A stretch of DNA of 32,991 nucleotides, taken from IMG/VR virus record IMGVR_UViG_3300032236_001009, positions 1 to 32,991 of that record; one strand, given 5' to 3'. Made by a program: the position numbers and the translations under genes. The DNA comes from a virus. Below the pieces are notes generated by a model. That model was not told where the DNA came from. It made no database searches and was given only the letters and a program-made list of their open reading frames with translations. Positions 22,993 to 32,596 of this stretch are shown one piece after another (position 1 is the first letter of the stretch; every line of letters starts with the position of its first letter).

Positions 22993-23168
22993 TTTCTATG
23001 ATTGCTGTATTTTTGTTTTTAACTGGATACGTTATTGTTAATATATTCGGTTCAAAATATAGAAACGTAGCTAATAAAGGCGATTATATTGGAGCCGGTT
23101 TAATACTCCTTTCTATACCCTGTTTTTTTTATGTTATTGCTATTTTTTGTTTGACATATTTGCCATGA
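22989..23168 (+). CDS. 59-aa two-TM membrane protein
   Basis: The product is MISMIAVFLFLTGYVIVNIF then a short basic loop and a second span GLILLSIPCFFYVIAIFCLT. It is coupled to the HAD gene upstream (ATGA) and to the ligase gene downstream (ATGA), so it fills the gap exactly. Function is unknown. Confidence 0.6.
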   Translation: MISMIAVFLFLTGYVIVNIFGSKYRNVANKGDYIGAGLILLSIPCFFYVIAIFCLTYLP

Positions 23169-24082
23169 TTACTAAAGAATCAGTTAAAGAATTTATTGCG
23201 AATAATCCTAAATTAGTTTCTAAAAAAGAAACGTCTGTTCCGGGTATTTACGTTCTCAAATATAAAAATAGGTGTTTCTACGATAATATTTGGAATGAAC
23301 ATATTGAAAACTGCCGTGGCGTAGTCATTGATGAAGATTATAATTTGATTGCTAATCCATTCAAGAAAATCTTCAATTATGGTATTGAATCAGGTGCCCC
23401 AACTATTTCCGATGATGAAATTGTAACAGCTGTCCGTAAGGTCAATGGTTTCATGTTGGCCGTTAGTATGTACAAAAATAAGTTACTCTTTTCAACAACT
23501 GGTTCAATTGATTCAGAATATGTATCAATGGGTTCTGATATTTTTTATCAAACCGTAACTGATGATCAAATCAAATTAGTAGAAAATTTGGCTATGTGCG
23601 GGGGTTCTACTCTGTTGTATGAAATTGTTCATCCAAATGATCCTCATATCATTCCAGAAGAGGTTGGTGCATATTTTCTTGGATTTAGACCGAATTGTTG
23701 GGATACAAGGATAATTCCCGTACATCATTACAACAAAGAGTTGTATGGTAAATCAATTGGCGATGTTGAACGCGTTAGATTTGGTGAATTGAAGCAAAGA
23801 GTAAAAGAATGTAAGCATGAAGGGTTTGTTATCTACTGTGATGATGGTAGAGCAACAAAGATCAAGAGTCCTTACTATCTGATTAAGAAGTTCTTTGCGC
23901 GTTGCAATAAGCCTGAGAAGCTACTGGAACGTAACGTTGAAAAGGCGTATCCAGAAGAATACTATCCATTGATTCGACATGTACAGACAAATGTTGATGA
24001 ATTTACTTTACTTTCTGAACAAGATCGGTTATCATATATCCGAACTTACTTAGAAAATTACATGAATGTACAGAGAGTTTGA
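23165..24082 (+). CDS. RNA ligase, Rnl1-like
   Basis: The product is 305 aa with the ligase order: ENCRGVVIDEDYNLIANPFKKIFNYG upstream of the nucleotidyl-Lys motif K92-V-N-G95, FSTTGSIDSEYV (motif III region), TLLYEIVHPND with E153, motif IV E219-G-F-V-I and motif V K232-I-K234-S. It would seal 5'-PO4/3'-OH RNA ends, as T4 Rnl1 does for cleaved tRNA. Motif I has Asn where most have Asp (KxDG). ATG 23165 is chosen for the ATGA overlap, as no strong Shine-Dalgarno is present. Likely substrates are tRNAs. Confidence 0.8.
   Translation: MITKESVKEFIANNPKLVSKKETSVPGIYVLKYKNRCFYDNIWNEHIENCRGVVIDEDYNLIANPFKKIFNYGIESGAPTISDDEIVTAVRKVNGFMLAVSMYKNKLLFSTTGSIDSEYVSMGSDIFYQTVTDDQIKLVENLAMCGGSTLLYEIVHPNDPHIIPEEVGAYFLGFRPNCWDTRIIPVHHYNKELYGKSIGDVERVRFGELKQRVKECKHEGFVIYCDDGRATKIKSPYYLIKKFFARCNKPEKLLERNVEKAYPEEYYPLIRHVQTNVDEFTLLSEQDRLSYIRTYLENYMNVQRV
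24007..24035 (+). promoter_or_regulatory. possible internal promoter in the ligase 3' end
   Basis: TTTACT (24007-24012), 17 bp, TATCAT (24030-24035) has the same layout as the 12228 promoter. It lies within coding sequence, so the match may be chance. If real it would serve the genes from 24066 on. Confidence 0.35.
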
Positions 24083-31590: not shown

Positions 31591-31619
31591 TTGACTTATT
31601 TTTTGAAATAGTTTAGAAT
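31591..31619 (+). promoter_or_regulatory. promoter for the tRNA-like RNA
   Basis: TTGACT (31591-31596), 17 bp, TAGAAT (31614-31619). An AATAAATA at 31617-31624, a weak late-promoter variant, overlaps it. Predicted starts are near 31626 or 31630. No ORF follows on this strand, only the structured RNA. Confidence 0.7.
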
Positions 31620-31621
31620 AA

Positions 31622-31745
31622 ATAAAACTGAGAGGACATAGCGGGGGTGTATCGCCCCCGGTTTCTACCCGGTCATTAAAAGCGTAATTGGAGTATGTGG
31701 GTTCGATCCCTGCCGCCCCCGCTATGTCCTTTCTCTTATATTTTG
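31622..31745 (+). ncRNA. structured RNA with a tRNA-like T arm on a 16-bp stem
   Basis: GGACATAGCGGGGGTG (31634-31649) pairs with 31714-31729 over 16 bp with one G-U. Directly inside the 3' strand is a T arm, GTGGG-TTCGATC-CCTGC (31697-31713), stacked as in a tRNA, with U8-A9-like TA after the 5' strand. The inner 7 bp look like an acceptor stem. CCGG-TTTCTAC-CCGG (31658-31672) resembles an anticodon arm with UCU, but no D arm fits and the segment before the T arm is too long. No CCA is encoded. Alternatively CGGGGG can pair with the internal CCCCCG (31655-31660). The 3' end is U-rich. It may be a degraded tRNA or a tRNA mimic. Confidence 0.6.
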
Positions 31746-32503
31746 AAAGTTTTACATTCTTCGACATTATTCAAAATAATTAAATTGATCATAGTTGAAA
31801 CTATATCAAGTTTTTCTTTTTGAACTTTTCTACAGTATTCGTTTTTAGGATCAAGATACAAGTCATGATCTGGTAAATAAAAATCTGGAAAATAATTCCT
31901 AGTTTTTCCATCAAGTTCATATTCTATTGGTTCTGGTCTTTCCCAACGTATATCCAATTCATCAAGACGTAACGCTAAGAAATCTTCCCAAGTAGAATCA
32001 AATATAAACGTTCTTCCGTTTTTATCCGTAAATGGATGAGATTTCTTTGAGACTCTTTGGTGTTTTGAGTTTAAAGCTGCAATTCTAATTTTTTCTTTGG
32101 ATTGTTCAGTGTGTTTATCGCTACCGTTTTTTCTTCTTGTTTCAGCTGATTTTTTAGCGGAACCTTTGTATTTTCCTTCTTTATGTGCTTTAGAAATACC
32201 TATCCTGATAGCTGTTATTGATTCTTCGGTCATGGTTTCATTACATTTGATGGAATTATTTTTAGCATTTTCAATATATTCTTCGTGTTTTGGATTTTCT
32301 TTACACCATCTTACGTGATTCGCTTTTTGCGATGCTGTCATATTACTTACGTCAATATCGCAATGAGGACAATTGGTTATTGGAGATGTATTGGAATGTT
32401 TTATTCCTTTTGCGCAGGCTTTAGAACCTATATGATTAGAAAATGCTGATACAGTGAATTCGTTACGACAAGAAGCGCAACATATTTTGTTGTTATTGGC
32501 CAT
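31736..32503 (-). CDS. homing endonuclease: zinc fingers, NUMOD3, PD-(D/E)XK
   Basis: The product is 255 aa from ATG 32503. Two Cys-rich fingers come first (CCASC...C, CPHCDID...C). A NUMOD3-like segment ISKAHKEGKYKGSAKKSAET follows, then the nuclease domain: FDSTWEDFLALRLDELDIRW, NYFPDFYLPDHDLYLDPKNE. PD and DPK match PD-(D/E)XK, close to the Vsr/EDxHD group of phage homing enzymes. The gene is leftward and convergent to the rightward operon, and stops within the U-rich tail of the tRNA-like RNA. A late promoter lies upstream. Confidence 0.8.
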   Translation of the reverse strand: MANNNKICCASCRNEFTVSAFSNHIGSKACAKGIKHSNTSPITNCPHCDIDVSNMTASQKANHVRWCKENPKHEEYIENAKNNSIKCNETMTEESITAIRIGISKAHKEGKYKGSAKKSAETRRKNGSDKHTEQSKEKIRIAALNSKHQRVSKKSHPFTDKNGRTFIFDSTWEDFLALRLDELDIRWERPEPIEYELDGKTRNYFPDFYLPDHDLYLDPKNEYCRKVQKEKLDIVSTMINLIILNNVEECKTFKI

Positions 32504-32515
32504 TTTGATAGTCTC

Positions 32516-32523
32516 TATAAATA
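32516..32523 (+). promoter_or_regulatory. plus-strand late-promoter motif
   Basis: TATAAATA followed by AAATTGTGAGGACA. The downstream sequence matches the leader of the tRNA-like RNA (AAACTGAGAGGACA). Initiation near 32529 would run into a 7-bp hairpin (32538-32560) and on toward the 32676 gene. Confidence 0.4.
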
Positions 32524-32596
32524 AAATTGTGAGGACAGCCGTTAATAGTCTCAACGGTTGATTTATTGGTGGAACAATAAATCTAACTTACAACTT

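Follow-up and report, generated by a model that had tools for sequence, protein, structure and literature searches.

What kind of RNA has the acceptor, anticodon and T arms of a tRNA but no D arm between acceptor and anticodon arm? This question is raised by an element at 31630-31733 of a 32,991-base virus record (the window, i.e., the whole stretch of DNA analysed), for which the original prediction had proposed a tRNA mimic, decoy or regulator, or else a decaying tRNA-Arg. The answer that we favour, with a probability of about 0.8, is a phage gene for tRNA-Arg(UCU) whose body is permuted in a non-circular way and which is predicted to specify a translating tRNA.

The element and its surroundings

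The element is bounded by a 20-bp helix (31630-31649 with 31714-31733), which encloses the T arm, the UCU anticodon arm and about 40 further bases, and which comprises a 7-bp acceptor plus 13 bp outside the acceptor. The pairing noticed first (31634-31649 with 31714-31729) is indeed unbroken in the sequence. The minimum free energy of the strand is -51 kcal/mol, compared with -32.4 +/- 3.5 kcal/mol in shuffles (z = -5.3), and none of 200 shuffles equalled it.

All parts of the element are on the plus strand. The 5′ side of the extended leader/trailer stem (31630-31642, 13 bp past the acceptor; partner 31721-31733) leads into the 5′ acceptor strand GGGGGTG (positions 1-7; 31643-31649), which is followed by U8, A9 and one extra U (31650-31652), a TAT that is invariant (and partly forced by the search patterns) in the 73-member alignment described below. 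Then come the trinucleotide CGC (31653-31655), equivalent to the tRNA 22-25 region, the anticodon arm CCCGG-TTTCTAC-CCGGT (31657-31673), with the expected UCU-bearing loop TTTCTAC at 31662-31668 and the anticodon TCT at 31664-31666, and, at the place of the variable loop, the linker CATTAAAA (31674-31681; CGTTAANN in the family version, alignment A2). Behind this linker stands GCG (31682-31684), the tRNA 10-13 region, which pairs with 31653-31655 to form a displaced D stem (P2), and then the displaced D loop TAATTGGAGTAT (31685-31696), carrying A14, A15, G18 G19 (31690-31691), A20 (31692), A21 and U48 (31696). The T arm with TTCGATC is present as GTGGG-TTCGATC-CCTGC (31697-31713), and the 3′ acceptor strand CGCCCCC (31714-31720) pairs with 31643-31649. 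Because CTA comes after the discriminator G73 (31721-31724), CCA is not encoded, as had been noticed; the 3′ side of the extended stem (31721-31733) is directly followed by the U-rich stretch that had been described as the end of the element. The reported lack of a D arm is correct for the usual place, but a D strand and loop exist, moved behind the anticodon arm.

The view that no standard class matches the element is borne out. The Rfam tRNA model (RF00005) scores it at 20.9 bits, below the gathering cut-off of 29, and ARAGORN makes a mis-bounded 91-nt tRNA-Arg(tct) call with wrong ends. Eight of 12 relatives just pass the Rfam model (29-35 bits), in which acceptor, anticodon and T arms are aligned but the D arm is left out. 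Because tRNA finders presuppose the order of the cloverleaf, permuted tRNAs would escape them. The element is no tmRNA either: it has an anticodon arm, and the gathering-level Rfam matches of the window are two ordinary tRNAs only.

A sigma-70-like promoter, TTGACT-17-TAGAAT (31591-31619, plus strand), was found by a consensus scan. What had been called a good promoter does match the consensus at 10/12 positions, but three promoter-grade sites compare with 2.1 +/- 1.5 in shuffles of this AT-rich region, and the promoter is therefore not significant alone. On the minus strand, a gene for an endonuclease-like protein of 272 aa (31736-32554; PHROG endonuclease families, E 4.5e-9) ends just past the RNA; a Pfam search with its product gave no match. 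Endonuclease genes adjoin the permuted tRNA in several unrelated phages and in both orientations (besides the window, L004 1323-1682, L007 744-1193 and L009 1290-1799), and HNH_3 was identified in those of three relatives; the permuted tRNA gene may be a favoured homing site for endonuclease genes. A 21-nt direct repeat, 90% identical (31618-31638 and 32517-32537), brackets the segment of tRNA and endonuclease, and behind its second copy stands a CCGTTAATAGTCTCAACGG stretch that faintly resembles the anticodon arm of the permuted tRNA and may be left over from an earlier copy. Elsewhere in the window (23147-24082) lies a homologue of T4-type RNA ligase 1/tail fibre attachment protein (phrog_562); T4-type RNA ligase 1 is known for tRNA repair in T4.

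A family of permuted RNAs in phages

The element is one of a family of RNAs, 82 nt long, whose members we identified in 242 phage records of GenBank and at about 100 loci of IMG/VR. BLAST with the window copy returned relatives of about 80 nt in 114 phage records (E up to 1), and BLAST with the copy of phage Felix O1 returned relatives in 242 (E up to 0.01); they reside in Felixounavirus, phi92-like, Mydovirus, Sugarlandvirus, 121Q-like jumbo and Streptomyces phages. Pattern scans of IMG/VR supplied many further members. No family match was found in 5,426 E. coli genomes or 72,556 plasmids, nor did an exact 30-base window pattern match in viral contigs. Two matches in bacterial contigs (L098 and L099) were rejected as bacterial homes, as they were without acceptor and T-arm pairing. 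The T4 species 1 and 2 RNAs were likewise rejected as relatives: the best T4 score, 26 bits, belongs to an ordinary tRNA, and species 1 reaches 19 bits.

Seventy-three distinct members align without gaps over 82 positions (alignment A2). Their common layout is a 7-nt acceptor strand, UAU, a 3-nt strand, the anticodon arm and a linker (mostly CGUUAAN plus one base), followed by the other 3-nt strand, UAANNGGNGUAU or similar, the T arm, the acceptor strand and the discriminator; CCA is encoded in 42 of the 73. Since the collection patterns fixed parts of the D loop, UAU (TAT) and UNAA, conservation at these columns is overstated; the widest scan left free the helices, positions 20 and 48, the discriminator and CCA.

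Within this alignment, 94.0% of the cells of the whole proposed structure are paired, compared with 63.3% when shuffled and at most 47% when slid; the acceptor helix reaches 98.6% and the T helix 99.2%. For the displaced D stem alone (3-4 bp), the corresponding values are 80.5%, 56.5% and at most 34%. Its pair 12-41 occurs as UA (40), GC (20), AU (10) and CG (3) with zero mismatches, and the two displaced 3-nt strands show nine compensatory dinucleotide combinations, with one exception. When 3081 column pairs were ranked blindly, places 1-13 all went to proposed pairs, the anticodon helix taking ranks 1 and 6 and the displaced D stem ranks 3 and 12. The 15-48 pair came in at rank 24 (A-U 73, G-C 1, G-G 1): a search for G15, run as a prediction, yielded two true members, which carried C48 and G48, and one Ile(GAU) relative likewise has G15-C48. 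G15-G48 is a known alternative, listed for tRNA-Cys (PMC9976931). Such strong conservation and covariation across unrelated phages led us to reject the decaying tRNA-Arg that had been considered.

The displaced loop UAAUUGGAGUAU fits a standard D loop (A14, A15, 16, 17, G18, G19, 20, 20a, 20b, A21, then U48 directly), and the displaced stem corresponds to a D stem whose 22-25 strand precedes its 10-13 strand. Numbered as in standard tRNA, the strand order is therefore 1-9, 22-45, 10-21, 48-76, and since segment 10-21 is placed behind the anticodon arm, the D stem encloses that arm. Both this order of parts and the covariation are read directly from the aligned sequences. The tertiary bases U8-A14, 15-48, G18G19, A21 and 54-58 are present, in permuted order, in 75 of 75 aligned members, some of these columns being partly pattern-fixed.

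Established tRNA contacts are the triples 9-12-23, 10-25-45 and 8-14-21 and the Levitt pair 15-48. The displaced D loop would keep A14, A15, G18G19, A20 and A21 to contact U8, U48 and the T loop in the usual way, and the new joins 9/22, 45/10 and 21/48 would link residues that touch in the canonical L (triples 9-12-23 and 10-25-45, A21 stacked on 8-14, pair 15-48), so that an L-shaped tRNA could form without rearrangement of the RNA. Energy folding alone does not pick the displaced D stem, the permuted fold lying at a median of 4.4 kcal/mol above the minimum; tRNA cores rely on tertiary contacts and modifications absent from energy models. As to origin, a tandem duplication of segment 10-45 with later loss of the outer copies would give exactly this order.

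More distant permuted members include Ile(GAU), Ile(UAU) and Arg(ACG), with shorter linkers. A strict scan found 82 matches in real and none in reversed sequence, two of the 82 being low-scoring and doubtful; a relaxed scan, with 21 matches in the reversed control, revealed no further convincing isotypes. Three candidates for a permuted tRNA-Tyr(GUA) (L144 7151-7247, L151 10872-10968 and L168 7052-7146) have the displaced D strand and loop inside a long variable-arm stem. In four loci, ARAGORN called Ile(tat) genes of 91-96 nt, which we rejected as permuted because they have the standard order and long variable arms. These standard-order tRNA-Ile(UAU) genes (L042 4163-4256, L012 7758-7848, L114 1612-1702 and L166 6269-6364) carry class-II-like long variable arms that are unusual for isoleucine. 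A possible phage-borne permuted tmRNA (L154 2464-2805; Rfam RF04321, 52 bits) occurs in the same phage as permuted tRNA-Ile genes.

Identity bases, codon use and the extended stem

The bacterial arginine identity set consists of A20, C35, U/G36 and A/G73, and A73, U20, A35 and U36 belong to the isoleucine set (PMC9976931). The window element has A20, C35, U36 and G73, in agreement with the tRNA relatedness and the UCU/arginine assignment first proposed. The arginine members, with anticodons UCU, UCG, ACG and CCU, have A20, the base that matters most for arginine identity in bacteria, in 60/60 cases and A or G at position 73 in 53 (U or C in the other seven), while the isoleucine members (UAU; n = 15) have U20 in 14 cases and G20 in one, and always A73. 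C35 accompanies A20 in all 60 arginine members, A35 is found in all 15 isoleucine members, and column pair 35-20, at rank 14, is the strongest covariation outside helices; because the split between C35/A20 and A35/U20 divides two subfamilies, it may go back to a small number of evolutionary events. The 35-20 link is strengthened by the rare members with UCG, ACG or CCU.

Most family members keep the company of ordinary tRNAs: a standard tRNA lies within 1.5 kb of 59 of the 73, always on the same strand, and within 20 nt of 18. Nine complete phage genomes (SSBI34, LPML1, Bas93, the 87,372-base AYO145A record, Antha, Roth37, Mydo, the 348.5-kb 121Q record and UPEC06) carry the permuted RNA and, according to ARAGORN, are without a standard Arg(UCU); AGA and AGG make up 23-45% of their arginine codons. 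In the window, AGA is the commonest arginine codon (125/322). Replacement of the standard Arg(UCU) is not absolute: in at least one locus, L049, it occurs together with the permuted one, and in L151 the same holds for Ile(UAU). The genome paper of Felix O1 names AGA as one of the codons whose tRNA “might have been expected”, but none was found (PMC3185647). In that phage, the permuted gene lies unannotated at NC_005282 25951-26032, between tRNA-Ile and an HNH gene. Other permuted relatives are annotated as tRNA-Val (Streptomyces phage Yaboi, NC_048730 86693-86754) and tRNA-Leu (phage 121Q, KM507819 73592-73654), both labels probably being misannotations.

The rearranged RNA probably supplies these phages with the arginine tRNA that standard gene finders miss. 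The host arginyl-tRNA synthetase would most likely charge it via A20, C35 and U36, and it would read AGA/AGG, which are frequent in the phages and rare in enterobacterial hosts. For the permuted RNA, we infer expression, charging, decoding and three-dimensional fold from its sequence.

Encoded CCA is replaced in part of the family by another feature. A leader-trailer helix of 12-16 bp is present in 11 of the 31 members without CCA (nine unbroken, two with one mismatch) and in none of the 42 with CCA (Fisher p = 2.4e-5, uncorrected for relatedness). Over the 11 members, it is 95.5% paired, compared with 68% when shuffled, and 11 of its 14 pairs show double changes. As the helix covaries, the extension of 9 bp past the acceptor in the original prediction is a real, selected feature, but its length in the window is actually 13 bp; a look for this outer stem in relatives revealed it, with covariation, in 10 besides the window. 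The window core without the extension has a local hairpin as its lowest-energy fold, and with the extension the acceptor stem forms. The switch between two folds (CGGGGG/CCCCCG) fared less well: the alternative pairing exists in the window, but the internal CCCCCG partner is not conserved. We rejected this candidate; some relatives (e.g., L012, L030 and L023) do have C-rich inner strands, yet their acceptors differ.

RNase P normally expects a free 3′ end. In the subclass of the window, the long leader-trailer helix would replace the encoded CCA; it would probably be trimmed by RNase III or a similar route, the trimming enzyme being conjectural, and CCA might then be added by the host enzyme.

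Competing explanations and significance

That this extended-stem subclass, the window included, stays a long hairpin that acts as terminator or regulatory RNA and never becomes a tRNA is unlikely. The 20-bp helix ahead of a U-rich sequence, the missing CCA and the usual expectation of RNase P would suit such an RNA, but its core retains every tRNA position seen in the CCA-encoding members, closely similar cores exist with encoded CCA, and AGA is heavily used in the window, as given above.

Still less probable is a role outside translation, in which the RNA would imitate the anticodon arm of tRNA-Arg (and Ile) of the host and, as a decoy or sponge, absorb a host anticodon nuclease or toxin. Phages are known to counter tRNA-targeting defence with tRNAs, the anticodon loop is strongly conserved, and the changed core could escape tRNA-targeting nucleases. 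A decoy would, however, need neither CCA nor A20, 15-48 covariation or an identity base matched to the anticodon, all of which are kept, and several arginine anticodons share one A20. We consider a working tRNA more likely than the mimic, decoy or regulator initially suggested, since the synthetase identity bases follow the anticodon, tRNA arrays are where most relatives lie, and the phages would otherwise be without a tRNA for the heavily used AGA.

We give very little weight to a D-armless type of tRNA, in which the D arm is simply lost and a long unstructured variable region left. The Rfam model, skipping the D arm, would accommodate it in the eight relatives that pass, but the displaced D stem covaries, and the displaced loop retains A14, A15, G18G19 and A21 together with the 15-48 pair. 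D-armless mitochondrial tRNAs (PMC2797822) likewise have no D arm at the usual place; the phage family keeps D strand and loop elsewhere. Least probable of all is a transcript cut and religated into a standard cloverleaf, as in circularly permuted algal/archaeal tRNA genes: the parts are in permuted order and the window phage encodes an RNA ligase homologue, but both ends already carry the acceptor strands (and CCA in the 42 members), restoring the order needs internal cuts and rejoining with no intervening sequence, and in the cases known, the 5′ and 3′ halves change places around a bulge-helix-bulge motif (PMC3978253).

With the canonical tRNA-Arg(UCU) (RF00005), the permuted tRNA family shares the 7-bp acceptor, the anticodon arm with CUUCUAA, the T arm with its TTCRA loop, the tertiary bases, A20/C35/U36 and, in most members, CCA. 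It differs in having strand 10-21 after the anticodon arm, an extra U after A9 and before A14, and a UUAA linker at the variable-loop place. In plant viruses, tRNA-like structures with a pseudoknotted acceptor form the 3′ end of the RNA genome. Those of TYMV and BMV, described as non-circular permutations, and bacterial Y RNA, a non-translating circular permutation, also combine a tRNA-like fold with a different strand order (PMC11472068); unlike them, the phage family is a free tRNA-sized gene of dsDNA phages, in tRNA arrays, with an ordinary, covarying 7-bp acceptor and CCA. In circularly permuted algal/archaeal tRNA genes, the parts are out of order too, but there the 3′ half is encoded ahead of the 5′ half, and the transcript is closed into a circle and cut anew, whereas the phage RNA has normal termini (acceptor 5′ strand first, 3′ strand last) and an internal, non-circular permutation (PMC3978253). 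Natural non-circular permutation of a non-coding RNA is known from hammerhead and related molecules, which differ in being ribozymes; tRNA figures in that report as reordered genes restored by circularisation (PMC10085705). In the open-access papers searched, we came upon circularly permuted tRNA genes, as well as tRNA-like structures and ribozymes of permuted order, but upon no tRNA whose permutation is non-circular.

The arm order of tRNA is regarded as universal and underlies the gene finders. We consider it quite likely that a second tRNA backbone topology is in natural use, in which phage Arg, Ile and perhaps Tyr tRNAs of standard L shape, with segments 10-21 and 22-45 exchanged, would be charged by host synthetases and active on the ribosome. 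This would explain the gap noted in 2010 in the classic phage Felix O1 and correct the tRNA annotation of hundreds of phage genomes, where such genes now appear as “none”, “tRNA-OTHER”, “tRNA-Leu” or “tRNA-Val”; laboratory phages offer directly testable objects. The altered core may hide permuted tRNAs from tRNA-cutting defences of the host. If true, it would be the fold, and not the cloverleaf order, that synthetases and ribosomes require.
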